DNA of 25,262 nucleotides from a virus, in IMG/VR virus record IMGVR_UViG_3300001213_000031, positions 1 through 25,262 of that record, one strand, 5' to 3'. Both the position numbers and the translations under genes were made by a program. The notes below the pieces were generated by a model, which searched no databases, was not told the DNA's origin, and saw nothing but the letters and a program-made list of their open reading frames with translations. Positions 1 to 24,990 of the stretch are shown piece after piece (position 1 is the first letter of the stretch; each line of letters opens with the position of its first letter).

Positions 1-1999
1 CGTAGATGTCGTTGACTCTTGTAGCAAGCGCGTCGAGCCGCTCGAGAACATCAGCTAAGGATGCCGAGGCAGGAGCGTCGCCTTCAGGTTCGGCTGCCTC
101 CTTCGTAACGGGAGCGGTCGCCATCAACTGCAACTGTGCCTTGATGACTTCGCTTACACTGTCGGCAATCGCCTTGACCGCGTCGTCTGTCAGCACAACG
201 GTGAAAGACTCGTCAGATGCTTCCTTCACAGTGACTTCTGGCTCTTCGCCGACCTGCTCTTGTTCTACCTCGGCTTCCTTGGCACGCACGAGCTGCTTGA
301 GCTCGTCGGCAAACAAAGGCAGTCGCTCTACGATCTGATTGGTACGCTCCTCGCCGAGGATCTTGACCAGGAAATCCCGTTTGCGGGCGTCGATGGTGGG
401 GGCCTGGGTTTTCACTCCAACCTCTTTCAGTGCAAGGCCGCTCCAGGGGAACGCGGCGGCATCCAGGGGCAGAATCGATCGCTCGACGATCATGCCCGGC
501 GGCAAGTACTGGCCGTCATCGGTACGACGACCGTACAGGAACCTGATCGAGGTGCCCATCTTCTCGGCACTCCAGTCGAAGTCGCGAGCTGCACGGCCAA
601 ACTCGGTGTCAGCAAAGAGGCCGGACTCGAGAAGGAACCCTGGCTCACCTTCCTTGGCAACCACGGCCTGGAAGTCGCAGGTACCGACGTCGGCGCCTGC
701 TACGTGATACAGACGCAACGGACCACGCTCGCCACTTTCATCAGCAGCCTTCACACACGAGCGCAGGAAGTCGGTGGTGACAATCTCCTTGTCGCGGTCC
801 TGGAAGCCACCCGATGAGATAGTGAACCAGCGTGTCGGCCCTTCTACTTCGTTGGCCTGCTTGAACACGTACAGGCCTGGTGTCATGTCGTCGCCCCCGA
901 TGCTCGAGAGCAACATCTCAGTCGACACAACGCCTGCTTCCTTCTTCTCCTCGTCCTCGGGTTCTACGACCTCTGCGATGTCCTCAGGCTCTTCCACGAC
1001 TTCGGTTACATCAGGAGCCGGCAGCCCTACGGCCTCATTCGCCTTGGCTTCCGCCTCGATCTCGTCCCAACTCTCGTTGAAAGCGGTCACGTAGGTTTCA
1101 ACCCAGAGCCGCTGCTTTTCCTCGTCGAGTTCCTTGACGGCAGCCGGTATCATGTCCTGCGTGATCATGTCAACGGTCATTTCAGCGGCGACGAAGTTCC
1201 CGCTCGTGGGCTCACCACTCGTGGGATCAGCAGCACCGTCCGCCTTTTCCTGCTGGCCTTCCATTACATCCTTCTCCTTTCGCCTGCTCGGCGGTGGCCA
1301 TGTGAAGGTGTTGCTCGCAACGCCCTCGCCTTGTTTCATACCAATCTTACGGAAGAAGCTGAAGGCATCGGGATGTGCTACGACCTTCACACCCAACCCT
1401 TGTGTGGCTGCCTGTCTGAGCACCTCGAACATTGCATGCCGCGCATAGCCGCGATCGCGTGTAGAGACATGGGTCAGCCCCATGTACTTTGTACCGCCAC
1501 GCCCAATGACATCCTTGCGCAGACCTATGATACCAACAGGCAGGTCACGCCCTGACTTCTCATCACGTCGGCGTACCGTCATGATACCGATCTCGCCGCG
1601 GTCGGCTTTGTTCAAGGCATCACGGGCTACGATGCCACGCACACCGGACCAGCGAGCAACACGGTCACGGGCGTCTTGGGGTACATCCTGCCCCTTCTCG
1701 AACTTAGCGTAGGATCGCTCACCAGCGACACCGGTTGGTCGATCACCAGAAGAGCCACCGCCGCCCTCTGAAGGTGCGGAGCCGCCGATCTCGCCAGGAC
1801 GGCCTGTATGGCCCCAGTGACCGCTACCTTCGCCACCTTTGGTACTAACGCTGTGTTCGCTTATGTTGATCGCACGAATTTGTGACAACGCTTCCGCTTC
1901 TAGGTCGTGGGTCCCTAGAGTCTTGCCCTGACGCTTGCCGTCTGGGTCTGTCTTGTACACACGGTACTTGTCGTTGATCTTGAAGACTTTATACGGCAT
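1..1999 (-). CDS. GNAT acetyltransferase-capsid maturation protease fusion (partial, runs off left edge)
   Basis: The open frame starts at an ATG at 1999 with AGGAGG a few bases upstream and is still open at base 1 (about 666 residues visible). Residues 54-76 are the module tag (GGEGSGHWGH...GRPGEIGG). Residues about 100-225 look like a GNAT fold: a basic strand region, R-x-x-G-x-A as RDRGYA at 181-186, and a C-terminal FFRKIGM typical of GNAT ends. Residues about 270-320 are acidic and helical, followed by an acidic linker. Residues about 375-520 resemble a head maturation protease of the HK97/Mu type: SSGGFQDRDKE, candidate catalytic His432 (LYHVAG), then Ser484 in MGTSIRF, then IVERSILPLDAAAFPW. 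The visible end is coiled-coil-like, perhaps scaffold. The protease would cleave head proteins inside the prohead. GNAT substrate is unknown. It has its own promoter. A second ATG with strong ribosome site lies at 1264. Protease call fairly sure, GNAT call moderate. Confidence 0.75.
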   Translation of the reverse strand, partial: MPYKVFKINDKYRVYKTDPDGKRQGKTLGTHDLEAEALSQIRAINISEHSVSTKGGEGSGHWGHTGRPGEIGGSAPSEGGGGSSGDRPTGVAGERSYAKFEKGQDVPQDARDRVARWSGVRGIVARDALNKADRGEIGIMTVRRRDEKSGRDLPVGIIGLRKDVIGRGGTKYMGLTHVSTRDRGYARHAMFEVLRQAATQGLGVKVVAHPDAFSFFRKIGMKQGEGVASNTFTWPPPSRRKEKDVMEGQQEKADGAADPTSGEPTSGNFVAAEMTVDMITQDMIPAAVKELDEEKQRLWVETYVTAFNESWDEIEAEAKANEAVGLPAPDVTEVVEEPEDIAEVVEPEDEEKKEAGVVSTEMLLSSIGGDDMTPGLYVFKQANEVEGPTRWFTISSGGFQDRDKEIVTTDFLRSCVKAADESGERGPLRLYHVAGADVGTCDFQAVVAKEGEPGFLLESGLFADTEFGRAARDFDWSAEKMGTSIRFLYGRRTDDGQYLPPGMIVERSILPLDAAAFPWSGLALKEVGVKTQAPTIDARKRDFLVKILGEERTNQIVERLPLFADELKQLVRAKEAEVEQEQVGEEPEVTVKEASDESFTVVLTDDAVKAIADSVSEVIKAQLQLMATAPVTKEAAEPEGDAPASASLADVLERLDALATRVNDIY
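1262..1264 (-). promoter_or_regulatory. Candidate internal translation start separating GNAT from protease half
   Basis: On the minus strand AAAGGAGAAGG precedes an in-frame ATG (Met246 of the fusion) by 5-9 bases. This is as good a ribosome site as the gene's own. It lies exactly in the linker between the GNAT-like domain and the protease half, so a shorter, tag-free and GNAT-free protease could be made from the same mRNA. Inferred from spacing only. Confidence 0.45.
1772..1840 (-). repeat. Module tag 1 (GHW variant) in GNAT-protease protein
   Basis: It encodes 23 residues, KGGEGSGHWGH-T-GRPGEIGGSAP, between a short N-terminal segment and the GNAT-like domain. Compared with the commonest form it has E for P at position 4, HW for NF, and I for the second E. 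It is followed by a Ser/Gly-rich linker. Confidence 0.9.
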
Positions 2000-2073: not shown

Positions 2074-2104
2074 AAAAATGCCCGACATGCTACGATCGTT
2101 GTCG
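2074..2104 (-). terminator. Weak candidate terminator at the end of the cargo operon
   Basis: On the minus strand CGACA (2104-2100) can pair with TGTCG (2087-2083), and five T follow at 2078-2074. The stem has only 5 pairs and a 12-base loop and overlaps the stop codon of the upstream gene. It sits between that gene and the promoter at 2025-2053, which is where a partial terminator would make sense. Low confidence. Confidence 0.25.
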
Positions 2105-3187
2105 TGGAGGTACGGAATACACCTTAGCAGTACCTGCAGATGTATGCCCCGCGATCATTATAACATCGGATCGTCGTGCTGCCCCCATCCCCGTCTGTGG
2201 TACCGCTAAGATACGATCTCTTGGTATGAACGAGCGTATCACATATCTATTCTCCGCGGCTGCCTCAGTTAGCGCATGTCGCAGATCTGACGTCCACGTA
2301 AAAAGAACATGTCGCGCGTTGAAAGAGATCGTCTCGTTGCGCTCGTGTGGTTTGCTCATGGTCACTGCTGCATAGGCTTCGATGCCTTCAACGTCAGCGT
2401 CTTTCAGTAGGCTCTGCGTGTACTCGTACTGTGCTTGAAGTTGAGCTACAAGAGCCTTCTGGTCGTCTGGATTAAGCTCTTTCGGTAACTCAGCTAAAAA
2501 CTTTTTCAAATTAGCGTCAGCAGGTGGGTACTCATAGGGGTGTGCGATGGCTCGCGCGAGTGAGATGTCACCTTTGGCAATCGCATTGGCGCGCACACCT
2601 AACCACCTGTAGTATTGATCGCCTGTTTTACGATCAAGGCTGAGTGAGAAAGCGCGTGCTGCTGCGCTCTCGTAGGCAATGAGAGCAAGTGAACTGCTCG
2701 GTGGTGCGCTTGTCCAAGTACGTAGGGCACGCTCGACTTGCGTTACGCTCCTGCTATTTCGTTGTGCGATAGCAAGGGCAGCTTCGCGTCTTTGAATGCT
2801 ATCGCCACCGTAAGAACTTCGGGTTGCTATGAATTTGCTGTAACGTCCTAGGGCTAGGATCCTCTCAGGTCCGGCAACGCTTCTGGGTGCGATACCTGAT
2901 AGACGAGCACCACCGTAGGTAGCGCCGTTATCGCCACCGTCGCCGGGTGCACTGCCACCTTCTTCCCCTGGTCTACCTGAGTGTCCGAAATTACCGCTGC
3001 CTTCGCCACCTTTGCTCGTGTCTCCCTGCGTCATCTCGCCAATAAGAAGGTATGGGGGCAATGCAATCAATAGTTCTTGATCGTCTAGAGGAAATAGCAC
3101 CTCGGCACCAAAAGACCCAGGTTGTGTTACGTAGATCTTATAACCAACACCTAACGGTGCATCAGGTACAAGAGCAGCTACCGTCAT
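2090..3187 (-). CDS. Tagged head-associated protein with ADP-ribosyltransferase-like C-terminus
   Basis: 365 residues. The ATG overlaps the stop of the 1216-residue gene as ATGA (3184-3187), so it is translationally coupled. Residues 1-58 are a short unknown N-terminal part. Residues 59-81 are the tag (KGGEGSGNFGH-S-GRPGEEGG). The middle is helical, with repeated Ala and Arg and no recognised motif. The C-terminal 90 residues resemble the ADP-ribosyltransferase fold of the neighbouring gene: FTWTSDLRHALTEAA (about 297-311) matches the aromatic-S-T-S motif region (ESWTSDRETAAGFA next door). Where the neighbour has the catalytic E-x-E (EYEYVTT) this protein has RRSDVIMI (338-345). The catalytic glutamate therefore looks replaced, and the enzyme may be inactive or use another residue. 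The ART assignment is moderate and rests on that local match. Confidence 0.6.
   Translation of the reverse strand: MTVAALVPDAPLGVGYKIYVTQPGSFGAEVLFPLDDQELLIALPPYLLIGEMTQGDTSKGGEGSGNFGHSGRPGEEGGSAPGDGGDNGATYGGARLSGIAPRSVAGPERILALGRYSKFIATRSSYGGDSIQRREAALAIAQRNSRSVTQVERALRTWTSAPPSSSLALIAYESAAARAFSLSLDRKTGDQYYRWLGVRANAIAKGDISLARAIAHPYEYPPADANLKKFLAELPKELNPDDQKALVAQLQAQYEYTQSLLKDADVEGIEAYAAVTMSKPHERNETISFNARHVLFTWTSDLRHALTEAAAENRYVIRSFIPRDRILAVPQTGMGAARRSDVIMIAGHTSAGTAKVYSVPPRQRS
2945..3013 (-). repeat. Module tag 2 in the ART-like protein
   Basis: It encodes KGGEGSGNFGH-S-GRPGEEGGSAP, followed by GDGGDN. Its only differences from the common form are E for P at position 4 and S for A after GH. 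Much of its DNA (for example the stretch around 2955-2995) is nearly the same as in the tag at 5365-5433. Confidence 0.9.
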
Positions 3188-6100
3188 TTCACGCCCTTCC
3201 TTGTCGTAACGACAATGTGCACTTTTTCACGCAGCACGTCGGCCCACTCCTTCAGAGTACGTTCAACCTTTGTCTGTTTGTACTCATCGAGTGAGCCCGA
3301 GCGATAAACGATAGCCCACGTGGTACTGTCGGGTAAGCCAATATCAATCAGCGCTTTAGCGCACTGTGATGCGTAAAGCAAGCCCTTGAAATTCCAGTCG
3401 CTTAAGTCAGCATACTGATCGTATGCCTCGTCGTTGAACTTCTGGAATTCGTCACCAGAGAGCAAATCGATAGCATCACTCTGATACATAGTACCACTAT
3501 ACGGTTTGTATGTCACATGGGGGTATTGATAGAAGAGCTGCAGTGGCATGCCTGTGGCTAGCTGCATCTGCCCGTGTGTTATGAACTCGTATTTCCGATC
3601 GGGTGAGATCTGCGGCATGTACACGTCACCACGACGCGGGTTCACAAGTATCGGTGTAGACTCTGGTAGCATATACCCGCGTTCTACACTGATAGGATGC
3701 TCCTTGTCGTAGTGACAAACGTTAATACCTGCCGGATACCTCTCGATCTTCTGTGAGATCGCAATGCTGCCCCAGCGCTTCCAGACGGGCGCGCTACTAC
3801 CAGCACTCACACTATCACCGGGAGCGCTGCCGCCTTCTTCGCCGGGACGTCCGACGTGTCCGAAATTCCCTGACCCCGGGCCACCTTTCACAACGGTGAT
3901 AATCTTATGCTTTCTCTGTGTCTGTGGTGGGTAGTCGTAAATGCTCTGTAGTTTCGCTGCCCCATTAGCAGCATAGAGTTCAGCGAGATTTCGCCAGTAA
4001 GTAGCACATGCCCCACTGTCGTTACGGTGCAGGTACACGTAGTAGGCATCGCTTAACGTGTCTAGTGAGCCGCGCGTTACTGCTGTAGGTCGTACACCAT
4101 ACAGTTTAACCATCTGTAACGGCTCAACACTTGCGAGTTGCTCTTGGAATGCCTCAGTCTGTTCTCTCTGAAGTGAAAAAGCACTATTTTTCGTTGCACT
4201 GAGAGCATACAACAATGCGTGTCCAACCTCGTGTGTTAACGTAAACTCCAAGCGTCCCTGTATCACACTGAGGGGGATATGTATACGAGCATTTTTAGAG
4301 GCTGCAAGTCCCTCCGTGTCGGCGTCCGTTTGACAAACACCGATGACCCTCTCACCTGTCAGCATGTCGAGAAATACGTCCTCGCACACGACCATGTGAT
4401 CTGGTGGGTTAGTACTTATTTTAGCGACTAACTGTAAGTGTTGTGCTGGTATGAGTTTCAGCATGTCCTGCAGTTCTGCGTGCAGTCCTGCAGGTACGCC
4501 TTCGATCACAGGTGCTAAACGTACGTTCTCACTTTCTTTTGCTTTATGGTGTATAATCTCACCCTCGAAGCCAGCACTCAGAAAGGCTGTGTACAGTTCG
4601 TCACGTGCTTTCGTTATTTCGTTGAACGCCGCGACTTGCACTGCAACTGGTGCGCCCTCATACATTTGAGCCTGTCGCAGTTGTTCTAGCCACTCGCGTT
4701 GCTCATTTATGTGGGCGCGCAGTGCAGCGGCCGGCAGACCCTCAACAGCTGGCGTACGTGTCAAATGCATGGTTTCATCGCGCGCTACTAGATAGAAATC
4801 CGTAGCACGTGAGTTTAATAGCTGTGTGGCATCCTGTACGGACAGTCTAGCACCACCAACGCTATGAGTCTCACCGTCCGGAGTGGTAATCTCGTGTATA
4901 GGGTGGTTGTGTAGAACTGTATACACAAGACCACTGTGTTGTAGTAGGTCCCACTCCGCCTCGTTTAGGTGAACCTGATCGTCAGTACCAGGTACGCATA
5001 GTGCCACATTGTCGTTGATATCAAGACCTACAACCCATTCAATATCGCCGCTTAGCACATGCTCCCTGAAGGCCGCTACTTTGTCGCCGCTGTTGTTCAG
5101 TGCCCTGTTCATAGTGTCAACAGCACGTTGGCGGCCGGCTGCGAAGACCCGTTGCTCCTCTTCTTGTGCCTTGCGTAGCACGTCGCTAGACGCCTCCGGG
5201 TTTTGAGCAGCTACTTTGAGACTAACATCACCGCCTCCTAGCCACTCGTGCACAAGGACGTATGCTAAGCCAGCAGCAGTAAGAGACACGCCAACGGCAC
5301 CAGTTACAAACAACGCTCGTCGCTGACCTGGGCTCATACGCTCTAGAGATGTATCGCTCCCTCCGGGCGCACTGCCGCCTTCTTCCCCTGGTCTACCGGC
5401 GTGCCCGAAATTACCGCTGCCAGGACCACCTTTCTGGACTATAGACTCTGTAGCCGTGATCTCAGCGTCTCGATCCGCTACGTCTGGGACGTAATGTATC
5501 CAGTTGGCGTTAACAGGATCTTGAATCTCGATTACTGTAGTATCATCTGTCACTTTATCACGTACGTTGCCTGTGCGTTTGTAGTATGCATACGGTACAC
5601 CGTGACTGAGATCGCGTAGGTCATAGCTCTCTGCTACGAGCGTCTTTGTACCCCTAATACCGCCCGTAGTTACATACTCATACTCAGGCAGGCTGCCGAA
5701 CCCGGTGCGGCAGGTACTTACGATGTTACGTACCTTAACGTCGGTAGCTAGCACATAGGAGTGAGAGTGCGGTGTTATTGAAGTGTCGTCAATACGCCGG
5801 CCTGCGAAACCTGCGGCTGTCTCACGGTCACTTGTCCATGATTCTAGGACGTTACCCACAACGCTGACGAGCATCCCGACTTTGAGATCCTTCTCAGACG
5901 TAACACCACGATACAGACGTAACGTGTCGTCAGGATCGAGGCCTTTGAGTTGCAGTTCAGTTTGTGTGTTTCTGTAGATCTCACGCAAAGCGGCATCGAG
6001 ATTAGCACCGGCATTGGTCGCTACTACGGGTGTCACACCCATGTGACCTGGAGGTATCTCACCTCCCATGCTAGTACCATTGAAGGCTATTAACTCGCGT

Positions 6101-6834
6101 GCTGCGTTCAATGCCGCGTCCGGCCATAGGTGAAATGGTGGCAGTGCGTACCCTGCAGAGTCACCGCTATTTACGACTTTATCGGGATCTTGTTCGTTCA
6201 AGATCTTGTAGTACAAGGGTGCGAAGAAGTCGGCAACCTCACTATCGCGTTTATCATAAGGATCGACAGCTAGGTCGTTGAGGACAGAGAGGGTCAAGTA
6301 TTCACGCAGCTCACCATCCGTTGGCATACCGTTCTGGGTTACGCGCCACGAGAGCATCTGTTGTTGTTGCCAAAGAGAGGGCGTCACACCGTACACGCGA
6401 GCTGCTGAGGCCTGCATAACCAGGCCGGATCTACTATCATTTGCCGAGAGTGCCCATCCACGTAGTAGACCATCAGCGATCTCACGGCGCACACCGGAAC
6501 CGACGGGTCGATTACTAATGTGCTCTTTCATTGCCACCCGGACTTCATCGTTACGTAGAGCAAGTCGCTGTGTCTCACGTGCTTCTCTGTCAGGATCTCG
6601 CGCGAACTCCTTTATGTTAAGGGCATCCGCTGGATTTCCAAAGAGTATGAAGTCATTCGACCACGTGTTAGTGTCGCCCCTACCCGGTACGTAGTTTGGT
6701 GGTTGCTTACTGAAGCCCTCAGGCACACCATCGTCACCGGGGGCAGATCCACCTTCTTCACCAGGACGGCCTGCATGGCCAAAGTTACCTGAGCCAGGAC
6801 CACCTTTGTAGGCTACCTTCAGTGCCCGCGTCAT
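3184..6834 (-). CDS. Multi-domain tagged polyprotein: ADP-ribosyltransferase + JAMM-like + HExxH zinc protease + unknown module
   Basis: 1216 residues. The ATG overlaps the upstream stop as ATGA (6831-6834). Three tags divide it into modules. Module 1 (tag 10-32) ends in a convincing ADP-ribosyltransferase domain, residues about 300-400: R309 in RLYRG, aromatic-S-T-S as ESWTSD (331-336), and catalytic E-x-E as LPEYEYV (E384, E386). Module 2 (tag 468-490) has a hydrophobic segment at about 508-531, then a JAMM/JAB-like metal motif (E599, HNHP 642-645, S665-x-x-D668), then a zincin motif HEVGH at 868-872 within FTLTHEVGHALLYAL and a downstream EAFQEQL (894-900) that could supply the third ligand. 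Module 3 (tag 983-1005) has about 210 residues with no recognised motif. The parts suggest toxin- or effector-type enzymes carried by the virion, as T4 Alt is. That role is inferred. Whether the chain is cut into separate proteins is unknown. Confidence 0.8.
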   Translation of the reverse strand: MTRALKVAYKGGPGSGNFGHAGRPGEEGGSAPGDDGVPEGFSKQPPNYVPGRGDTNTWSNDFILFGNPADALNIKEFARDPDREARETQRLALRNDEVRVAMKEHISNRPVGSGVRREIADGLLRGWALSANDSRSGLVMQASAARVYGVTPSLWQQQQMLSWRVTQNGMPTDGELREYLTLSVLNDLAVDPYDKRDSEVADFFAPLYYKILNEQDPDKVVNSGDSAGYALPPFHLWPDAALNAARELIAFNGTSMGGEIPPGHMGVTPVVATNAGANLDAALREIYRNTQTELQLKGLDPDDTLRLYRGVTSEKDLKVGMLVSVVGNVLESWTSDRETAAGFAGRRIDDTSITPHSHSYVLATDVKVRNIVSTCRTGFGSLPEYEYVTTGGIRGTKTLVAESYDLRDLSHGVPYAYYKRTGNVRDKVTDDTTVIEIQDPVNANWIHYVPDVADRDAEITATESIVQKGGPGSGNFGHAGRPGEEGGSAPGGSDTSLERMSPGQRRALFVTGAVGVSLTAAGLAYVLVHEWLGGGDVSLKVAAQNPEASSDVLRKAQEEEQRVFAAGRQRAVDTMNRALNNSGDKVAAFREHVLSGDIEWVVGLDINDNVALCVPGTDDQVHLNEAEWDLLQHSGLVYTVLHNHPIHEITTPDGETHSVGGARLSVQDATQLLNSRATDFYLVARDETMHLTRTPAVEGLPAAALRAHINEQREWLEQLRQAQMYEGAPVAVQVAAFNEITKARDELYTAFLSAGFEGEIIHHKAKESENVRLAPVIEGVPAGLHAELQDMLKLIPAQHLQLVAKISTNPPDHMVVCEDVFLDMLTGERVIGVCQTDADTEGLAASKNARIHIPLSVIQGRLEFTLTHEVGHALLYALSATKNSAFSLQREQTEAFQEQLASVEPLQMVKLYGVRPTAVTRGSLDTLSDAYYVYLHRNDSGACATYWRNLAELYAANGAAKLQSIYDYPPQTQRKHKIITVVKGGPGSGNFGHVGRPGEEGGSAPGDSVSAGSSAPVWKRWGSIAISQKIERYPAGINVCHYDKEHPISVERGYMLPESTPILVNPRRGDVYMPQISPDRKYEFITHGQMQLATGMPLQLFYQYPHVTYKPYSGTMYQSDAIDLLSGDEFQKFNDEAYDQYADLSDWNFKGLLYASQCAKALIDIGLPDSTTWAIVYRSGSLDEYKQTKVERTLKEWADVLREKVHIVVTTRKGVK
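3820..3888 (-). repeat. Module tag 3 in the 1216-residue polyprotein
   Basis: It encodes KGGPGSGNFGH-V-GRPGEEGGSAP, preceded by KIITVV. The 26 bases at 3881-3906 are identical to 7765-7790 at the third tag of the next polyprotein, covering the start of the tag and the residues before it. This points to a recent DNA-level exchange or duplication between modules. Confidence 0.95.
5365..5433 (-). repeat. Module tag 4 in the 1216-residue polyprotein
   Basis: It encodes the common form KGGPGSGNFGH-A-GRPGEEGGSAP. It follows the ART domain of module 1 and comes about 15 residues before a hydrophobic segment that opens module 2. Confidence 0.95.
6739..6807 (-). repeat. Module tag 5 at the N-terminus of the 1216-residue polyprotein
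   Basis: It encodes the common form of the tag starting at residue 10. Upstream residues KVAY resemble TVAY before the tag at 8703-8771, and the bases around 6800-6817 match that copy, so similarity extends beyond the tag itself. Confidence 0.95.
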
Positions 6835-9800
6835 GCAACACCTACCGTGATACGACGATTCTTACCACCGAGGCGCAGCCGCGCTGTCGTCTGCTCATGT
6901 TGTACACGCATGCCCATCCCAGGTTGCAGGTCGGGGTGTTCTAATTTGTAGTACAGGTCTTTGATTGCGTCGTTATCAACACGATAACAGCGCAGACCTA
7001 AATTGCTATTGTTTAGTTTGTGCACCAAGTCATCTGACAGTTTCTCGTCCGCTTGCGCTCTAGATCTACGACCTGACAACACAGAAAAGGTAGATATCAT
7101 CATACCCCTAGCGAGCTCAGGCTCAAGTAGCTTCGCGACAGCCTCTGCGCTCGGCCACTTAGCGCCTGGCTCACCTTTTGGGTTCATAGGGTATAAGATG
7201 TATGTTGCCTTCGGTGTTATCACTCGCGTCTGATCAACATCATTGTTTATAGCTATGAAGACGTCTTCGAGACTGAATGCAAGGTCTCGCGAAACACTGT
7301 CGTCCTCGTATGTGGTCTCCTGATGGTTATGTACAAGTATGGAGCCTTGCAGCGATGGCAGGTCAGAGTCAGCTATATGCACACTGTAGGGGTTGTCGTC
7401 AGATGCTCTCTCATGCAGCAGCGTGTTACCAGCACCGTCGAAGACGTATAGCTCTTCATGCATGAGACCCACCATGCTCAATCCCGTCAGACCTATAGCC
7501 AGAGCTGTCTCTGGCTTCAGCGCTTCGAAGTTCGAGATGTGCATATACGGGTCAAGGAACCAAGTACTACCCAGACCACGAGCCATATCAACTGACAGTT
7601 GGTTAGCGAAGGCTGGAGTGTCACGCGTGGCATACCGTAGCCCTGCAGCCCGCAGATCGGCTATCGATCGTGGACTACCTACAGCGGCACTGCCTCCGTC
7701 GCCGGGAGCGCTGCCGCCTTCTTCCCCTGGCCGACCTGCGTGACCGAAATTCCCGCTACCCGGACCACCTTTCACAACGGTGATAATCTTGCGTGCCTTC
7801 GTGGGTTGCTCTCGTGTGTCTTCAGGCAGCACCCAAATACAAGGGCCCTGGATCTCAGGACAGAGCAAGTCAATCAGTTGTGCCCCTGCGCTAGCACTCT
7901 CTTTACGCGTCACGGGCACGATAGCACGAGGAGGTGTATGTTCGACCGTGACACCCTCGAAGGCATCAGCATCTTTAGGTAATGGCTTAATACCGTACCA
8001 TGTGTTACTGCTACCCTCAGGCTTGAACGCCTCTAATCCGATGATGTCACACATTTTACGCACTGGCGGTAGTGGCGTATAGAAGTCAATCTCTTTATCT
8101 TGTGCGTTGGCGAGAACGTGCAACGTGGTAAGCATCCAGCGCTGTTGCATAGGACTAACAGCGAGAGCTGCAACGTAACTGCTATTCTCTCTCGGGCCGT
8201 CACGGCGCAGGATAAGCATCGCTTGAGTTTGTCCATTCGTGTCAGTGATAACTATAGGCACAGCTGCTGTTGCCTCGATACGTATGTCATTCTGCACAAC
8301 GCTGCCCCAAAGATTCGTGAACCTATCAGTGGCCTGTAGGTCCTGAAATGACGGCGAAGGACCAGACCAGCTAAGAGGGATGCTTCCGCTCTCGTGAGGT
8401 CCCCCACGTATCGCAGCAGCACCAATGTGAAATGTCAGGTCCTCACCGCCCTCATGAGCCATTTGTTGGGCCAACTTCGTCAGTTGCACTGTATCGCGAG
8501 CAATCTGAGCTGCGGCTGCAATGTCGTTTTTGTAAGTTAGTGCCACGAGTCCCAGCACAGCGGCTGTAGCGGATAGCTGCACTGTCGCGCGCAGCCCACG
8601 ATTAGAGTTCAGTGCTACACGTAGACCTGTTAGACCACGACCAGCGACATCTAGGTTGTGTTGTATCGTACGGACTACACTATCTCCAGTGGCCCCATCA
8701 CTTGGTGCACTGCCTCCTTCCTCGCCGGGTCGACCAGCATGTCCGAAGTTACCGCTACCAGGGCCACCTTTGTAGGCTACTGTTAGTAACCGCGTTGCCT
8801 CTTTGGACACCTTGCGAGGTCGCTCACTTGCAGGAATACGCTCGTAGTGGAAATCATATACCTTAGCAGCAGAGATCCACGCTTGATGTAGAGCCTGCCG
8901 TTGTATCTCGTGTTTCGGAAGCTCAGGGTGTGCCTTACCGATTACCTGCAGTCGCCGTGTGTACGAGTCGGTCACGTATTTGTTCATTAACGAACCGGCG
9001 TGACCCCAGCGGCCCTTGCCGCTCTTGTCGTGTAGTGAGCGTCGAATTACATACGTCTCGTGCGGCGTCACAACACGCAGCTCGCCTACGCGTAGCCGAG
9101 CAGCGGTTTCAATGTCCTTGGGGTTGGGTGGCATAGCGTAGTGCATACTCCCATCACGATATCGCGCGGGGGTGCCACGTACTAGCACACCGTCGATGCC
9201 GTGTGAGATGATCAGATCATTCTTGGGAAAGTCCAGGTACCCAGGCTTCGTAGTTGCTTTGAACGTCTCGAGCGTACCCGTAAGGGATACTAAGGCTATG
9301 GTATCGAAGTTGTTACGTCCTAAATGGCTTTCGACAATGTCTGCAGCTGCCTTAGCAAAGGACATAACACCTTCTTCGACCCAGAGTACTGATTGCTTAT
9401 GTCCCTCTGTATCACCTTTGAACGGCACGTATGGGTACTCACGTGCCGGCGTACGTGACAATATGGCTCGGTACACAGCTGTAGCGGCCATGGTACCTAC
9501 AACGCCGACGTTAGCTAAGAACATCAGTTTCTTGTCGGCTGGCATCTGTTGCCATTCCTCACGCGAGGTCTGTACGAAGCGACCACCTGCATCGCGAGCA
9601 CTGCTGATAAGGCGATTGCTGACACGTGTGACTCGCCCCACTACGCCGTTGCCCCCACTGCCTCCGCCTTCGCCGTCGCCAGGGGCACTACCGCCTTCTT
9701 CACCTGGACGTCCTGCGTGTCCCCAGTGTCCAGACCCTGCCCCGCCCTTGCTGTGCGAACGCACAGTGCGCCAGGCTGCTTGCTTCGCAGCACCGTCAGT

Positions 9801-9935
9801 GAAACCGTTATCCATCAGCTGCGTGTAGTAGCACTCTACCCAAGTACTACGCAGTTCATCAGGCAACTGTAGCACACTACGTGAAGGTCCTACGTAATCA
9901 GCCGGCTCAACCACCGTATCTTGTTTCTGGACCAT
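6831..9935 (-). CDS. Multi-domain tagged polyprotein: ChaB-like N-terminus, two JAMM-like modules and a GNAT-like module
   Basis: The frame is open from an ATG at 9995, but the ATG at 9935 is preferred: AGAGAGG lies 5-6 bases before it and it follows the upstream stop by one base, while 9995 has no ribosome site (1034 residues from 9935, numbering below). Residues about 22-60 look ChaB-like (LPDELRSTWVECYY, then KQAAWRTVRS). Module A (tag 63-85) has a hydrophobic stretch at about 138-160 and a degenerate JAMM-like region (SHG 244-246, PPNPKD, VVTPHETYVI). A shortened tag lies at about 303-315. Module B (tag 389-411) has a hydrophobic stretch at about 450-468, then a GNAT-like region at 555-650 (MLILRRDGP, YVAALAVSP, IIGLEAFKP). 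Module C (tag 722-744) has a JAMM-like region with HNHQ (869-872) and S888-x-x-D891. Role inferred as head-carried effectors; catalysis is uncertain for module A and for module C, where Q replaces P. Confidence 0.75.
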   Translation of the reverse strand: MVQKQDTVVEPADYVGPSRSVLQLPDELRSTWVECYYTQLMDNGFTDGAAKQAAWRTVRSHSKGGAGSGHWGHAGRPGEEGGSAPGDGEGGGSGGNGVVGRVTRVSNRLISSARDAGGRFVQTSREEWQQMPADKKLMFLANVGVVGTMAATAVYRAILSRTPAREYPYVPFKGDTEGHKQSVLWVEEGVMSFAKAAADIVESHLGRNNFDTIALVSLTGTLETFKATTKPGYLDFPKNDLIISHGIDGVLVRGTPARYRDGSMHYAMPPNPKDIETAARLRVGELRVVTPHETYVIRRSLHDKSGKGRWGHAGSLMNKYVTDSYTRRLQVIGKAHPELPKHEIQRQALHQAWISAAKVYDFHYERIPASERPRKVSKEATRLLTVAYKGGPGSGNFGHAGRPGEEGGSAPSDGATGDSVVRTIQHNLDVAGRGLTGLRVALNSNRGLRATVQLSATAAVLGLVALTYKNDIAAAAQIARDTVQLTKLAQQMAHEGGEDLTFHIGAAAIRGGPHESGSIPLSWSGPSPSFQDLQATDRFTNLWGSVVQNDIRIEATAAVPIVITDTNGQTQAMLILRRDGPRENSSYVAALAVSPMQQRWMLTTLHVLANAQDKEIDFYTPLPPVRKMCDIIGLEAFKPEGSSNTWYGIKPLPKDADAFEGVTVEHTPPRAIVPVTRKESASAGAQLIDLLCPEIQGPCIWVLPEDTREQPTKARKIITVVKGGPGSGNFGHAGRPGEEGGSAPGDGGSAAVGSPRSIADLRAAGLRYATRDTPAFANQLSVDMARGLGSTWFLDPYMHISNFEALKPETALAIGLTGLSMVGLMHEELYVFDGAGNTLLHERASDDNPYSVHIADSDLPSLQGSILVHNHQETTYEDDSVSRDLAFSLEDVFIAINNDVDQTRVITPKATYILYPMNPKGEPGAKWPSAEAVAKLLEPELARGMMISTFSVLSGRRSRAQADEKLSDDLVHKLNNSNLGLRCYRVDNDAIKDLYYKLEHPDLQPGMGMRVQHEQTTARLRLGGKNRRITVGVA
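7704..7772 (-). repeat. Module tag 6 in the 1034-residue polyprotein
   Basis: It encodes the common form of the tag, preceded by RKIITVV. It shares 26 identical bases (7765-7790) with the tag at 3820-3888. It opens the C-terminal JAMM-like module. Confidence 0.95.
8703..8771 (-). repeat. Module tag 7 in the 1034-residue polyprotein
   Basis: It encodes the common form of the tag, followed by SDG rather than GDG and preceded by LTVAY. It opens the GNAT-like module with a hydrophobic segment about 40 residues later. Confidence 0.95.
8991..9029 (-). repeat. Truncated module tag
   Basis: It encodes DKSGKGRWGHAGS. The GxGxWGHAG core matches the GHWGHAG form of the tag at 9681-9749, but the N-terminal GGxG and the C-terminal RPGEEGG parts are lost. 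It sits at the end of the degenerate JAMM-like domain, where a module boundary would be expected. Confidence 0.55.
9681..9749 (-). repeat. Module tag 8 (GHW variant) near the N-terminus of the 1034-residue polyprotein
   Basis: It encodes KGGAGSGHWGH-A-GRPGEEGGSAP. It has A at position 4 and HW instead of NF, as in the protease-gene copy. It directly follows the ChaB-like segment and is followed by a Gly/Ser-rich linker. Confidence 0.95.
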
Positions 9936-9936
9936 G

Positions 9937-11550
9937 TCAACCTCTCTGGGGTGTGATACCTCTACGTCTACCGGGAGCACGTACAGGCGACACATGAGGT
10001 AACGTGAAAGCTAAGTTAGGCGTCGGCCTTCCGTATACAGCACCGTAAGGGTCACGCAACCTGTCTTGTAGTACTTTAGGCGACAGACCATAGCTCTTGA
10101 TCAGCACATCGAGTGACGTAGCTATCGGCTGGAAATCACCGTAAGACCAGAAGCTAGTGCCTACAGCCTGCTCTAACTTGGGGTCTGATATGTAACGCCT
10201 CAGGTACTGTGTGAAAGCTTTTTCAAAGAATTGTGACCAGTTAGGCTCGAGCGCCTGCAGTTGGTTATTCTCTGCGTATACTTTGAAAGCGGCAGATTGA
10301 CGTACACTGTCACGGAACAGCAACCACTCAGATTTGAACGACGATGTTGAACCTGGCAGCCCACGGCTTTCAGTTAGCAACCTATTATCTAGATCATTAG
10401 CTACGGCGCGTGTTAGGTTAACTACATTCTGAGGTCCTGTGTACAACACAGCTCCAGGACGTGCATTATCACTGACTGCAATTCTGTGTAGACCACGCTC
10501 CTCAAAGCCAACTGAAGCGTCGAGTGCATCAAGTAGATCTTGCACCTGCTCGAGGATATCCTTGTTCTGTATGGTGACGTCAAAGTCACGACTGTACAGG
10601 TTGGCATCGAACATACGTTGAATCTCAGGCTGAATGTAACTTACTAGCTGCGGTAGGTGCTGCGTCACGTAAGCTGCAGATGCTGTTATACCGAAAGCGA
10701 CACCGGCGTTCACTGCACGCCCGAGAGGGTGCTCCAGATCTAGCGCGTTAGCTGCGGCTTGGGACCAGGCATCATCGCGAGGGCCTACAGGTTCTAAGTG
10801 ACAACGACAGTTCGGATGTGCAGGTATCGTATAGGCAACGCCGTCTAAGGAAAACACAGGGTTGCTTACACTAGCAATGGCACCTCTACCTTGATTCATG
10901 TCACCGAGGGCAGCACACACACTACATGTTCGCTCGTTCGGATCTGTACGCCAGGCAACTTGTTTATAGCCCTTCAATTTGAAAACTTCGTTGCGTGTCA
11001 GACCATATATACGTGACGTTTCAGTTATAGCTATACGGCTCGCCCTGTTGGCGGTTGCAGCGCCTGGACCTCCCGGTAGTATTGTTGCTATATTGTCGAT
11101 CAGCTCTTGTCTACTACCGCCGCGCTCTGACCAGGAGCGAAAGGCTTGTGTTAGCTGGTTTGCCGTACTCTTATCCAGGTCGGTTACAAACTGTGTGGGG
11201 TCATACTTTGCCACTATCTTCCGTGAGGTAGCATCAAACTGTCGATCAGTAATCGCATCCGACGCCGTGCGTCCGACGACCTCGAGCGAGCGCACTAACG
11301 TGGTCTGCAACACGTTGGCGAGTGCTGACTGTGTTGCTTTGCTTGTGGTGTCGTCATGCAGCAGTTGAGCGACAAGATCGGTTAGCTGTACCTCTTTGGC
11401 TGCCTGTTGCACTGCTGATATGTACTTTTGTAAGTTGGTAACAATCAAGCGTTTCTGGCGTACGAAATGACGGGACAAAGTCGTTTGTAGCTTGTCCTCT
11501 GCAGCCTTACGCTGTTGGTGTAACGGATCCAGTGACGTCGCTCCACTCAC
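9937..11550 (-). CDS. Mu F-like minor head protein with extra C-terminal domain
   Basis: 537 residues from a GTG that overlaps the portal stop as GTGA (11547-11550). Residues about 130-255 are a clear Mu F/SPP1 gp7-type head morphogenesis domain: SRIAITETSRIYG (171-183), VAWRTDPNERTCSVC with C209 and C212, and AHPNCRCHL with H245, C248 and C250, the usual metal-binding pattern. Family members bind the portal inside the head, and some are ejected with the DNA. About 280 residues follow, more than a plain family member needs. They contain a mildly hydrophobic stretch (GVAFGITASAAYV) and, near 430-450, NWSQFFEKAFTQYL, which resembles the EFFAEAF-type C-terminal part of lethal-factor-like zincins. 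No HExxH is present, so if it is a zincin it is inactive. It carries no tag. It is the gene directly before the tagged polyproteins. Confidence 0.88.
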   Translation of the reverse strand: MSGATSLDPLHQQRKAAEDKLQTTLSRHFVRQKRLIVTNLQKYISAVQQAAKEVQLTDLVAQLLHDDTTSKATQSALANVLQTTLVRSLEVVGRTASDAITDRQFDATSRKIVAKYDPTQFVTDLDKSTANQLTQAFRSWSERGGSRQELIDNIATILPGGPGAATANRASRIAITETSRIYGLTRNEVFKLKGYKQVAWRTDPNERTCSVCAALGDMNQGRGAIASVSNPVFSLDGVAYTIPAHPNCRCHLEPVGPRDDAWSQAAANALDLEHPLGRAVNAGVAFGITASAAYVTQHLPQLVSYIQPEIQRMFDANLYSRDFDVTIQNKDILEQVQDLLDALDASVGFEERGLHRIAVSDNARPGAVLYTGPQNVVNLTRAVANDLDNRLLTESRGLPGSTSSFKSEWLLFRDSVRQSAAFKVYAENNQLQALEPNWSQFFEKAFTQYLRRYISDPKLEQAVGTSFWSYGDFQPIATSLDVLIKSYGLSPKVLQDRLRDPYGAVYGRPTPNLAFTLPHVSPVRAPGRRRGITPQRG

Positions 11551-13116: not shown

Positions 13117-15693
13117 TTAGAACATCGCGCCTGCAGCACCTGTTGTTGTCGCGCCTACCATGCAGTAACGCAAGGCATCGAGCATATGGAACTTGCTTTT
13201 GTCTTTGATTTCCGAAGTCGGCAGCCCTCTAGCATCGGACTGCCTTGAGTAGGTTCCCAGTTCATCTCGCAGTGAATGCAAACTATCAAAAACAAAGAAC
13301 CTGCCGGTACGCGCGGCAGCAACGACGCGCGTGATACCAGATTCAACATCTGAGATCGGTGGAGCGAGTACGGGGATATGCTTCGCACCCCAGTCCCAAC
13401 GGAACTGGTGCTCGCTTGGAGCACCACCAAACCATGCTACGACTTTGTAACCCTCTGCATCTTTTATTGCAAGGTCCGTTTGTTCATCTGTTGTCAAACC
13501 ACCGCGCATTTCTTCTTTGAACACATAGTACTTGCGCTCGCTAGGTTTGCTGCCTTCAGGATCGACAGCAACAAAGATGAGGGCTGTGTGCAACGGACCG
13601 ATATCGATTCCTACGTAGCAAGGCCAGTTGAAAGGTATCTTAAACGGCTTTACAATATGCTTCTCGGTAACGTCGCCATAGATCAACCCTGCAGGTCTGG
13701 CATACTCGCCCTTATAGAACATTGAGAATAGCCAGGGTTGTAAATCCTTCTTTGCTTCCTCAAACTCCTCTTGTGAGAATGCAGGGTTCTCTGCGCTATC
13801 GAATTGTATGACGTCGTAGTTGGTGTCGCCGTTCTTCCACTTGTCGTATACTTCGAACTTCAACCAGCCTACGTTGTATAGAGTCGTCGCACCAAGCACA
13901 CGGCCCCTAGATAGTGATAAACGACGGCGTACAGCCTGCCAGGTACCTACTCTGTAATCGTCGTGCCCTACTTCGTCCAGCACAGCCGCCATTGCGGATG
14001 CTGATTCAAGGCCACTACCTGACTGTGCTGACCGTAAAATGATACGGCCCCACATTGTATCATCTGCACGTTTAGCCTGGAACTTGCCGGTCTTCGGATT
14101 CCGTAACTCGATAACTTTATCACCTGACCAGTAGCGCCCTAGATTCAGCACCTCTTCAAAAACGGTGCGCATCTCCGGTAGTAGCTTGAGCTTAAACATA
14201 TCGAAGGATGCGCTTACTGCAAGGTAGTCACCGCCGCCTTTCCCTTTGAAGCTACCTGCGCCATAGATCTCACGCCACAACCACCAAGGGACGAAACTTG
14301 TGTTGTGTGCAAAGATATCTTGTGCTACGAAGTTCCGGGTTCCTTCGATTTCCAAGTCCCAGGTCTCTTGCATACCTGTGTCGAGTATCTCTGTAATCTT
14401 GTCCCAGTAGATGTCAGAGTACGCCTCATTAATACCAACACCGAAGTGTTCTGCCAGCTGCTGTGCTACGTCACGTGAGGGGTACTGCCTTATGTAGCCC
14501 TTACCCTTCCTACCACGTGGCGCAAAGCCATGTAGTAGCTCTCTACCTTCTTGATCTACGTATCCATTGTGCTTTGTTTCGGGTCTGTACTGCGGATGAC
14601 CCAGAGCTCGCCAACATTTATCCAACGGGAAGTCGACACATACGTCCTTCACGTTCTCGCGATGGTTGAGTTTACGCTCTAGAAGTTCCAGTAGTTTCGC
14701 CTGCTTGTCACCTACGAAGCCGATATTCTCAGCAAACTTGAACAGTGACTCACGATCCGTGATTCTAAGGCGCCAGCTGTCGAAGATATTACCACGTTCG
14801 TCGTATCCAACGGCACGGTACCACTTGTAAGTAATAATACCGAACCTTAGCAGCAAATGCTGTACGTCATCGAGCATGCCCTCTGACGACAGACCTAGTA
14901 CTACACTTTTCACATCGACAGTGCCGTCTGTACTATACAGGCCTTGTAGCACCTCTGCTATGAACTCGTTGCGTAACGTAAATACGAACTCCGGGATACG
15001 TTTATGAATCGCTAAGGTATCCCAAATGCCCCATTGCACGCACAACTCCCGCAGTGCGTTACCCCTTGGTGCGTCTTTGCTGCGTCTGATTCGGTAGTCT
15101 GGACGCTTCTCACTTTGCTGCACCAACGTACACGCTTGTGGTAAACAGTCGTTGAAGTCTTTCAGGATCGTGACATCGGTGTTGGTAAACTGCGGCGTAA
15201 TGCCGCGAGTGCAACCATCACCGAGAATGTAGCCCAATAGGCGCATTTCTTGCGGGTCAGCTGTATTCTGACCAAGTTCAGGGTAGCTACGTGGTACCCC
15301 AATCCAATCACCAACCAGCATTTCACCTGCGGGTTTCCAGCCTGTTTCGCTGTATAACGGATGCTCTTTAGTTACCTCGATCTTACGGCCTGTCGCAGTG
15401 ACAATCGCAAGTAATGGCTTTACACCCATACTCTGCGACTGTAACACCTTAGACCTTTGTATCCGTAATCCTTTGCCGAGGCTTAGTATATGATCGCCAG
15501 GTCTTATCTTACAAACTTCAACCGACGCTCCAGTCCCTGTAAAAATCTTCGCCAATGCTGCCAGGCATTTCCCGCCCTGTGTACCGGCGAGTACAAAAAT
15601 GTTGCGTGCGGAGGAGTCCCATGCACGTAACTGTCCAGGGTGAAAATTCAGACGTAGCGCACCGCCTGTAACGTCATAGAGGGTCTTGGCCAT
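13117..15693 (-). CDS. terL: Terminase large subunit, interrupted by an intein
   Basis: 858 residues from the ATG at 15693 (GAGG 6 bases upstream); a TTG two codons earlier is also possible. The start overlaps the terS stop by 20 bases. After removal of the intein (residues 43-464) the host protein is about 436 residues, normal for TerL. N-extein HPGQLRAWDSSARNIFVLAG leads to the Walker A region GTQGGK, which is completed by TS after the intein. Walker B is AAVLDEVGHDD. The nuclease half has VGIDIGPLHTALIFVAVD for the first catalytic Asp and KFHMLDALRY near the end. TerL is the ATP-driven packaging motor and the headful or cos nuclease. It can be active only after protein splicing because the intein splits the ATP-binding loop. 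Confidence 0.93.
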   Translation of the reverse strand: MAKTLYDVTGGALRLNFHPGQLRAWDSSARNIFVLAGTQGGKCLAALAKIFTGTGASVEVCKIRPGDHILSLGKGLRIQRSKVLQSQSMGVKPLLAIVTATGRKIEVTKEHPLYSETGWKPAGEMLVGDWIGVPRSYPELGQNTADPQEMRLLGYILGDGCTRGITPQFTNTDVTILKDFNDCLPQACTLVQQSEKRPDYRIRRSKDAPRGNALRELCVQWGIWDTLAIHKRIPEFVFTLRNEFIAEVLQGLYSTDGTVDVKSVVLGLSSEGMLDDVQHLLLRFGIITYKWYRAVGYDERGNIFDSWRLRITDRESLFKFAENIGFVGDKQAKLLELLERKLNHRENVKDVCVDFPLDKCWRALGHPQYRPETKHNGYVDQEGRELLHGFAPRGRKGKGYIRQYPSRDVAQQLAEHFGVGINEAYSDIYWDKITEILDTGMQETWDLEIEGTRNFVAQDIFAHNTSFVPWWLWREIYGAGSFKGKGGGDYLAVSASFDMFKLKLLPEMRTVFEEVLNLGRYWSGDKVIELRNPKTGKFQAKRADDTMWGRIILRSAQSGSGLESASAMAAVLDEVGHDDYRVGTWQAVRRRLSLSRGRVLGATTLYNVGWLKFEVYDKWKNGDTNYDVIQFDSAENPAFSQEEFEEAKKDLQPWLFSMFYKGEYARPAGLIYGDVTEKHIVKPFKIPFNWPCYVGIDIGPLHTALIFVAVDPEGSKPSERKYYVFKEEMRGGLTTDEQTDLAIKDAEGYKVVAWFGGAPSEHQFRWDWGAKHIPVLAPPISDVESGITRVVAAARTGRFFVFDSLHSLRDELGTYSRQSDARGLPTSEIKDKSKFHMLDALRYCMVGATTTGAAGAMF
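14302..15567 (-). mobile_element. Intein with LAGLIDADG homing endonuclease inside the TerL Walker A motif
   Basis: 422 residues, from Cys43 to Asn464 of TerL, with Thr465 as the +1 nucleophile. Splicing motifs are all present: N-terminal CLAALAKIFTGTGA, block B VTKEHPLY with the T-x-x-H pattern, and the C-terminal WDLEIEGTRNFVAQDIFAHN with penultimate His and final Asn. The endonuclease has two LAGLIDADG helices, LLGYILGDG and LQGLYSTDG, each keeping its acidic residue, so cleavage activity looks intact. The insertion point lies between GK and TS of GTQGGKTS, a highly conserved ATPase site and a favoured intein location. The element is in frame with no stops. Confidence 0.93.
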
Positions 15694-16183
15694 CCACAAC
15701 CTCGGTCACGCGGGTTGCAACGCCGTCGACAACGTCCAGGTGTGTCGGTTTGATGTCGATAACGTCGGCCGCTTCTATTGCGAGTTGCTCACGTGGTCTT
15801 ACAATCTCAACCACGTTGAAGTTAACTATCTGCGTGTTACCTTCGGATTTCTCTGCAGTCACGTAACCGAGGCGTGCCTGCAGATCCGTTACCCTCACTA
15901 GCGAGTCGATAGCCTTAAGGCTACCAGCTAGCACAGCGGGCATTAACGACTCCACAGCCACTTCCAGGCGATAGAATAGGGTCGAGCGTAGCTCGTTCGC
16001 GGCTGCCTCGTTGATGGCGCCTGCACGGTCAAGTGCATCTCTCAGATAACGCTGTACTTGACCGACACTCAGATCCATATCCTTCGCGATCTGGTCGACA
16101 CGCGTGCCGTGCAAACGTGCTGCTAGTACCTGCGACTGGATCGTGAGGTTCTTAGCGGTGTGCCCAATCGGTTTGAAGATCAC
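15674..16183 (-). CDS. terS: Terminase small subunit (probable)
   Basis: 169 residues from a GTG whose first bases overlap the upstream stop as GTGA (16180-16183), with GGAG 8 bases before it. Residues about 24-55 form a helix-turn-helix: AARLHGTRVDQIAKDMDL then SVGQVQRYLRDALDRAG. The rest is helical and could oligomerise, with an acidic and Val-rich tail. The small subunit recognises the packaging site and presents DNA to TerL. The call rests on the DNA-binding motif, the size and the position directly before terL. No family-specific residue was identified, so it is probable rather than certain. Confidence 0.72.
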   Translation of the reverse strand: MIFKPIGHTAKNLTIQSQVLAARLHGTRVDQIAKDMDLSVGQVQRYLRDALDRAGAINEAAANELRSTLFYRLEVAVESLMPAVLAGSLKAIDSLVRVTDLQARLGYVTAEKSEGNTQIVNFNVVEIVRPREQLAIEAADVIDIKPTHLDVVDGVATRVTEVVDGQDPL

Positions 16184-23655: not shown

Positions 23656-24075
23656 ATGGGGAAAAACAACGTAGCAGTGGCAATTCTCTCTGGTGGCCTT
23701 GATTCAACCGTGGCGGTGCAGATGGCTCTGTCCCAAGGTCTGCATATTGCAGGAGCAATCACGTTCGTGTACGGCCAGCGACACTCGCGTGAGCTATATC
23801 ACGCGAAGGCGGTAGCAGGTGTTTACGGCCTAACGGGCCTACGGCATCTCGTAGTGGAAATCCCACCAGCACTAATGCGTGGCAGCGCGCTGACCTCGGG
23901 CGGTGGCGACGTGCCCGAGAATCGCACGCCGGAGCAGATGATGCATGGCATTGCTCCGACCTACGTGCCGAACCGTAACATGGTCATGCTCGCGATGGCA
24001 GGCTCTTTCGCGTGGCAGCACGACGCCGACACGCTCATAGGCGGTTGGCACTGGGACGACAGCAGCGGCTACCCT
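23656..24075 (+). CDS. queC: 7-cyano-7-deazaguanine synthase QueC, exon 1
   Basis: 140 codons of the N-terminal half, starting at ATG with AAGGAG 9 bases upstream. AILSGGLDSTV (from residue 9) is the PP-loop that binds ATP, followed by FVYGQRHSRE, then VPNRNMVMLAMAGSFAW and GGWHWDDSSGYP, all typical of QueC. The unspliced reading frame runs on only to a stop at 24084. QueC converts CDG to preQ0, with ATP and ammonia, in the queuosine/7-deazaguanine pathway. In phages preQ0 is usually a precursor of modified guanines in DNA. Joined to exon 2 it makes 249 residues, the normal length. The splice point splits the conserved GYP-DCREEF sequence. Confidence 0.92.
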
Positions 24076-24660
24076 AGACAATAATTGGGGTAGTAAAACC
24101 CTCTCTGAATAACGGGAAAATCCGCCAATGAAACAGATCACGGACAACCCGATGCAAGCAGACGTAATCTATGCTGCAGGTTTCTTCGATGGTGAAGGTT
24201 CCTTCGGCATCTACAACGGTTCTGGTCCGAGCCGTAAAGCTCTCGTATTCGTATGCTCAGTTTGGCAGAGCTACCGACCCGTCCTCGAGTGGTACGTGGA
24301 AACCTTCGGCGGTGGTATCTTTGACAGGAAACCAACGCTAGGTAAGGCAGGTTTCGAATGGCGAGTTACGGGACACAGAGCTGCTTGGTTTATCAACTTG
24401 ATCCAACCCTTCTTGAAGGTAAGGCAAGCTGACGCAGAACTAGCTCTTTGGGTTTGGGAAGCACACCTGAAACCGGAGGAGCGGGTAGTAAGGATTGCAG
24501 CCTGGAAGGCGCGTCGTGCAGCAGCAACGACTAAGCGAGAGGGCACCAGTGTAGTAATCGCTGGTGGTGCGATAGTCTGATCTGCAGAAATGGCAAATCT
24601 GCAGAGGCGGCAGAAATGACCGCCCGCTCCGTGAGCTAACGGAGTCTAAGTAACAGAATG
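24076..24660 (+). mobile_element. Group I intron in queC
   Basis: The 585-base insertion interrupts queC at GYP|DCREEF. The exon 1 end CTACCCT pairs with GGGGTAG at 24086-24092 in the intron, forming a 7-pair P1 with the obligatory U.G at the splice site, and the intron ends in G (24660). These are the marks of a group I intron. The intron start also has CAAT (24079-24082), which could pair with ATTG of exon 2 as P10. Near the 3' end are several stems, including CTCCGT/ACGGAG (24627-24632 with 24639-24644) and GGCGG (24606-24610)/CCGCC (24620-24624), likely parts of the catalytic core, whose P3-P7 assignment was not worked out. It carries a homing endonuclease gene. Confidence 0.88.
24128..24580 (+). 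CDS. Intron-encoded LAGLIDADG homing endonuclease
   Basis: 150 residues, inside the intron, with no overlap of exons. One LAGLIDADG motif, YAAGFFDGEGSF (about residues 15-26), keeps the catalytic Asp, so the protein should act as a homodimer. GGGIFDRKPT and GFEWRVTGHRAAWFINLIQPFL follow, as in intron-encoded single-motif enzymes. The C-terminus is basic (WKARRAAATTKR). It would cut intronless queC alleles and spread the intron. Ribosome binding is poor at both ATG 24128 and ATG 24152, and the start lies in the 5' core of the intron, so translation is probably low, a common feature of such genes. Confidence 0.87.
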   Translation: MKQITDNPMQADVIYAAGFFDGEGSFGIYNGSGPSRKALVFVCSVWQSYRPVLEWYVETFGGGIFDRKPTLGKAGFEWRVTGHRAAWFINLIQPFLKVRQADAELALWVWEAHLKPEERVVRIAAWKARRAAATTKREGTSVVIAGGAIV

Positions 24661-24990
24661 GATTGCAGGGAGGAATTCCTGGCAGCTACCGAGAACGCGT
24701 TGCGCCTCGGGATGGGCCGCTCAGAGTTTACGATCCTACGGCCGTTGATCGGGATGGGCAAGGACGACATTATCAAGGTCGGGCTCGGCATCGGAGCGCC
24801 GCTGCGTCTGACATGGAGCTGCTACAAGGGTGGCGACGTACCTTGCGGCAAGTGTGACTCCTGCATCCTGCGCGCGAACGGCTTCGCAACCGCTGGAGTG
24901 CAGGATCCTGCCATCGCGTCAGGCATCACACTGAGTCAGATCAAGGCCATCGCATACGAACCTGGAGCAGAGGTCACAAGGGAGGAGTAA
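24661..24990 (+). CDS. queC: QueC, exon 2
   Basis: It supplies residues 141-249 of QueC after splicing. A start at ATG 24658 exists only by chance: it uses the last three intron bases. DCREEFLAATENALRLG is the usual QueC helix, TILRPLIGMGKDDI the middle, and TWSCYKGGDVPCGKCDSC supplies the four zinc-binding cysteines (C194, C202, C205, C208). GFATAGVQDPA is the conserved end. All catalytic and metal residues are intact, so the gene is interrupted, not broken. Its stop overlaps the next ATG as TAATG. Confidence 0.92.
   Translation, partial: DCREEFLAATENALRLGMGRSEFTILRPLIGMGKDDIIKVGLGIGAPLRLTWSCYKGGDVPCGKCDSCILRANGFATAGVQDPAIASGITLSQIKAIAYEPGAEVTREE

Follow-up and report, generated by a model that had tools for sequence, protein, structure and literature searches.

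Background

The internal proteins of phage T4 are ejected head proteins that are processed by the prohead protease, and in phage lambda an in-frame internal start within the head-protease gene C gives rise to a second product, Nu3. In phage SPN3US, the head protease trims N-terminal propeptides from capsid and ejected proteins (gp245) at AXE (PMC10052503). Multidomain phage polyvalent proteins, which carry effector-type domains including GNATs and are thought to be packaged, have been described by Iyer et al. 2017 (PMC5512222), and in the part of that account drawn on here a C-terminal assemblin-like peptidase is proposed to process them. Phage head-region proteins with diverse enzymatic domains are also known as the MuF polymorphic toxins (PMC5576092).

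The window analysed here is an entire viral record of 25,262 bases, and the gene of interest, ORF 1999-2, lies at one edge of it. Like the polyvalent proteins, ORF 1999-2 appears to combine an effector-type domain and an assemblin-like peptidase in one chain; unlike those in the part of the account of Iyer et al. (PMC5512222) considered here, its predicted peptidase is the head-protease gene itself and is followed by a scaffold-like tail, and a repeated tag, a residue set per genome before such a tag or an internal start is not mentioned in that part of the source. In the window, the MuF protein (9937-11550) has no tag; the tagged domains belong to other ORFs, the protease ORF among them. ORF 1999-2 resembles lambda C/Nu3 in that a head-protease gene contains an internal start in frame; the differences are a cargo domain at the front of the long form and a predicted internal product that comprises the whole protease and not the scaffold part. 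The processing proposed below is similar to that of SPN3US and T4, where a head protease acts on head proteins at a fixed short site; in contrast to those systems, the putative site is a single residue in front of a long, conserved tag, this residue is not the same in all phages, and one of the cargo domains is joined to the protease.

Architecture of ORF 1999-2

On the minus strand, ORF 1999-2 reads as leader, tag, GNAT-like domain, internal ATG, ChaB-like segment, head protease and acidic tail (Table 1). A preliminary description of this DNA, made from its letters and open reading frames, had placed a tagged GNAT-like domain in front of the head protease in a single gene, and this was confirmed, the ORF being open throughout with the tag at aa 54-76. 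Its tag sequence is KGGEGSGHWGHTGRPGEIGGSAP. The first start is preceded by the Shine-Dalgarno sequence AGGAGG (-10.3 kcal/mol), the motif in the leader is also present near the N-terminus of the protease ORFs of relatives, and the acidic tail is probably scaffold-like, judging from its sequence and the layout of relatives. The ORF gave no confident match in Pfam, PHROGs or NCBIfam and, when used whole as a query, no homologue in viral contigs or sequenced phages.

Table 1. Features of ORF 1999-2 and further tag copies in the window
Feature	Position	Strand	Remarks
Whole ORF	2..1999	-	666+ aa, open from ATG 1999, runs off contig edge
N-terminal leader, aa 1-50	1850..1999	-	MPYKVFK...GTHDLEAEALSQIRA
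Tag and preceding residue, aa 54-76	1772..1840	-	K54-GGEGSGHWGHTGRPGEIGGSAP
GNAT-like acetyltransferase domain, about aa 95-234	1298..1717	-	
Shine-Dalgarno AAAGGAG of internal start	1274..1280	-	
Internal ATG, aa 246	1262..1264	-	At GNAT/protease joint; TAATG overlap in +1 frame
ChaB-like segment, aa 285-324	1028..1147	-	
Predicted S78-like head protease, herpesvirus-assemblin fold, aa 378-540	380..868	-	Conserved His432, Ser484
Acidic tail	2..379	-	Incomplete at contig end; read from sequence; relatives with same layout
Tag copy, ORF 2090-3187	2967..3001	-	Preceded by K
Tag copy 3, ORF 3184-6834	3842..3876	-	Preceded by K
Tag copy 2, ORF 3184-6834	5387..5421	-	Preceded by K
Tag copy 1, ORF 3184-6834	6761..6795	-	Preceded by K
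Tag copy 3, ORF 6831-9995	7726..7760	-	Preceded by K
Tag copy 2, ORF 6831-9995	8725..8759	-	Preceded by K
Tag copy 1, ORF 6831-9995	9703..9737	-	Preceded by K and ChaB-like segment

The protease part was modelled as a herpesvirus assemblin fold with a pLDDT of 87.6, and the first 16 PDB matches found with Foldseek were all herpesvirus proteases, at modest E-values (best 5e-3). The catalytic His and Ser are invariant across 36 protease sequences, and D, E, H, S and P are invariant in the protease alignment; the curated Pfam profile Peptidase_S78 did not match ORF 1999-2. On the strength of this model and of the invariant residues, the C-terminal part of the ORF is assigned as a head protease of the assemblin-like (S78-type) kind. 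In the relatives examined, the protease gene is located directly before the major capsid gene; the window ends inside ORF 1999-2, before the capsid gene of this phage.

For the domain in front of the joint, the segment RDRGYA, read in the sequence, conforms to the acetyl-CoA motif R/Q-x-x-G-x-G/A, and Pfam Acetyltransf_10 matched below its cut-off of 23.6 (13.2 bits, E 0.088). A single-sequence AlphaFold2 model of low confidence (pLDDT 50) had a GNAT-like topology, and its best PDB matches in Foldseek were nearly all GNATs, including AtaT and KacT (best E 1e-4). Taken together, these results weakly suggest a GNAT fold for aa 95-234. No homologue of the domain was found in viral contigs or sequenced phages when it was used as a query, and hence the exact GNAT-protease fusion is known from one case; at the loci of the protease relatives, too, none carries this GNAT ahead of the protease.

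Relatives and their fused partners

A profile built from six proteases detected 51 loci in viral contigs, while the alignment of the six gave no match in bacterial genomes and the protease of a relative, used as a query, gave none in sequenced phages. The four closest relatives (46-55% identity) begin at ChaB, without tag and without GNAT, and the remaining ones have N-terminal regions of varied kinds. Among the latter, nine divergent relatives have a different, conserved domain of the HGFLIWRGK type, for which no Pfam match was found, fused in frame ahead of the protease; each of the nine has an in-frame ATG at the joint, with Shine-Dalgarno energies of -10.6 to -4.9 kcal/mol, most of them below -7. 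Strong internal ribosome sites are present in the protease ORFs of L139, L171 and L179 as well. Over all protease ORFs, ATGs with a Shine-Dalgarno energy of -8 or lower were more frequent in frame (23 of 310) than out of frame (15 of 460). The nine in-frame fusions with an ATG at the joint thus indicate that a partner domain joined to the protease, together with an internal start, recurs as a layout in this family, and the GNAT fusion of the window is one example of it.

The preliminary description had named homologues lacking both the internal site and the domain as evidence against its reading. What the relatives have kept is the in-frame internal start with its ribosome site, together with other N-terminal domains and not the GNAT of the window. 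Evidence against the reading was found in part: the four closest relatives have no such domain and the GNAT itself occurs in none, but nine relatives do have a fused domain and an ATG at the joint, and L139, L171 and L179 have strong internal sites.

One gene with two possible starts

When the codon usage of the remaining structural genes in the window is taken as the training set, ORF 1999-2 codes in frame 0 throughout, but over aa 233-245, immediately ahead of the internal ATG, the signal falls nearly to zero. Exactly at this start the +1 frame reads TAATG, so that a one-base change would yield two overlapping genes. Both features would fit two separate genes, with the GNAT gene ending at the +1 TAATG and the fusion due to an event in the 13-codon linker, either a sequencing or assembly error or a real frameshift of one base. 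We consider this unlikely, since the GNAT and protease sides share one frame with no stop between them, and in-frame fusions ahead of the protease are found in nine relatives on other contigs, which makes a fusion ordinary in this family.

The claim of a strong ribosome site and an ATG exactly at the joint was borne out, AAAGGAG being located 9 nt upstream with an energy of -8.7 kcal/mol, and only 6 of the 356 ATGs on the minus strand reach -8.5. As 23 in-frame starts were examined in ORF 1999-2, one chance site of this strength among them is not rare, and the weight therefore rests on the position at the joint and on the recurrence in relatives. If only the long protein were made, the internal site would be a relic or a product of chance; the stronger site at ATG 1999 and the fact that in-frame sites of -8.5 or lower are not rare over 23 starts are compatible with this, but the placement of the site exactly at the joint, and the recurrence of ATGs with ribosome sites at the cargo/protease joint in divergent relatives, render it improbable. 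We infer that ORF 1999-2 would give two products from two starts.

The tag and the residue before it

The window contains eight copies of the tag, as against none in 100 dinucleotide shuffles, and K precedes all eight. The core of the tag is GGxGSGxxGHxGRPGxxGGS, and with the preceding residue X the tag is written X-GGPGSGNFGHAGRPG. Its DNA pattern was found in at least 119 stretches of viral contigs and the tag itself in at least 249 copies in at least 112 viral loci; the same tag precedes many unrelated domains, both in this phage and in others. A tblastn search with the tag gave no match, probably because glycine-rich sequence is masked by BLAST, exact tag strings had no match in the open-access papers searched, and none of the Pfam, PHROGs and NCBIfam matches to window proteins covers it. 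The tag is widespread and apparently undescribed.

Among the matches listed (at least 249 copies), the residue before the GG of the tag is 92% identical within loci and 17% between loci, and with L, A and M pooled, agreement within loci is complete among these matches (342 of 342 pairs). Record G023, with nine diverged tags that each follow K, is an example. Such fixation per genome points to a phage-specific factor reading one residue, and suggests that this residue is most simply the P1 position of a protease.

A purely copied tag was rejected as the cause of the fixed residue, as other tag columns vary freely. In a related explanation the head protease leaves the tag uncut, and the tag serves as a flexible docking or packaging linker, its fixed residue stemming from recent copying of one tag within each genome. 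In length and conservation the core goes far beyond what a protease site requires, and the other tag columns do have a degree of similarity within genomes (among the matches listed, kappa reaches 0.48 in columns that vary well). The linker explanation nevertheless has a low probability in our view: among the same matches listed, the preceding residue has a kappa of 0.91, far above every other variable column, it agrees in 98% of the pairs whose cores differ at five or more positions, and positions -2 to -12 are close to random.

The tag is found beyond viral contigs as well, in bacterial genome contigs (L207-L221) that are mostly of Clostridia; it always follows D in the Clostridia-type contigs, and L or A in Sulfuricaulis and Terriglobus. 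Three records (L030, L080 and L108) have 9 to 11 copies in a few very long ORFs, with a constant preceding residue (R, R and N, respectively). In the window, one segment of the three-tag ORF 3184-6834 (minus strand) resembles an ADP-ribosyltransferase (DRAT, E 0.003, under the cut-off), and others look like a JAB-like HNHP motif and a SprT-like metallopeptidase. ORF 6831-9995 (minus strand), also with three tags, has a ChaB-like segment at its start, directly before the first tag; since ChaB also heads the protease of relatives, it may target proteins to the prohead.

Protease type and probable capsid cleavage site

S78-type proteases were detected with the family alignment, PF04586 or PF14550 (E ≤ 0.001). 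Such a protease was found in 7 of 10 K records and in 0 of 39 others, 49 other tag records having been scanned (Fisher 1.4e-6, with the three seed records left out and phylogeny ignored by the test). The seed records are K as well, and all tag records in which a profile detected an S78-type protease are of the K type; G056, a K record with a sub-threshold S78_2 match, was left out of the count. In the other residue classes, the S49, ClpP, S78 and S78_2 profiles gave a single ClpP match, in a D record, and no protease match in the remaining non-K records. By eye, divergent assemblin-like proteases are apparently present in N- and E-type records and were missed by every profile; hence the link is to a protease sub-lineage and not to S78 as such.

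The capsid proteins encoded after the proteases of relatives have K at the joint of N-arm and core in 39 of 41 cases and R in one, which is the place where the HK97 capsid protein is cut, at K103/S104 (PMC10275583). Three further K-type capsid proteins read K/A at that joint and one of N type reads N/S, as judged by eye; for the N, E, R and L/A classes the comparison consists of single cases, also by eye, and no site is claimed for these classes. The connection that the preliminary description drew between the tag and head maturation gains independent support from the residue before the tag, which is constant within each genome and, in all records with a detected S78-type protease, is K. One N-type tag phage (L226:274-2412) has a protease-like domain, scaffold and capsid protein fused in a 713-aa ORF with N/S at the start of the capsid core.

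Proposed processing of tagged proteins

We propose, with an even chance of being right, that the head protease of the phage itself cuts at the tag, that a dual-start gene supplies a long isoform carrying GNAT cargo, and that tagged domains are freed in the capsid. A cargo unit of leader, K/tag and GNAT would have been fused in frame onto a ChaB-protease-scaffold gene, with the ribosome site of the protease retained. Initiation at 1999 would produce a GNAT-carrying protease and initiation at 1264 a bare one, and the long form would be brought into the prohead by its protease/scaffold part. The active protease would then cut K/GG (the slash marking the cut) at the tag it carries and at the remaining seven in the head operon, and the tagged domains would be released inside the capsid and ejected with the DNA. 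Use of both starts, cleavage of K/GG, its cleavage by this protease, and packaging and ejection of the GNAT are all presumed here. For ORF 1999-2 itself, the putative cleavage site K/GG would be at K54. No second tag follows the GNAT, so that a cut at K54 alone would remove the leader and keep the GNAT attached to the protease; its release would take a further site, one without a tag. The proposal also gives no role to the long conserved core of the tag beyond the cut. That the GNAT acetylates the head itself (capsid, scaffold or protease) instead of being ejected as cargo would agree with its joining to the protease and the missing second tag, but is still less probable than the alternatives above because the tag also precedes many unrelated domains in the window and in other phages, as expected for cargo.

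Slightly more doubtful than the proposal for this locus, and held tentatively, is a wider one: the tag would mark head-cargo domains in many phages, with the preceding residue (K, D, N, R, E, Q or L/A/M) set genome-wide by the maturation protease of each phage, so that one protease frees a set of tagged effectors, and the protease of this phage would itself carry one effector by way of the dual-start gene. If true, the residue before the tag would be a sequence-readable cutting preference of the head protease of each phage, and the tag would be a search key for proteins, many without a match to any known family, that phages carry in their heads and inject into bacteria. The locus would also exhibit a one-gene way for a phage to tie an effector to its maturation protease.

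Elsewhere in the window, an intein that includes a LAGLIDADG endonuclease domain interrupts the large terminase (13117-15699, minus strand). A QueC-like 7-deazaguanine synthesis protein (23656-24990, plus strand) is apparently split, as seen by eye in the translations, into an N-part (23656-24084) and a C-part (24658-24990), and a LAGLIDADG-like ORF, perhaps within an intron as judged by eye, lies between them (24128-24580).
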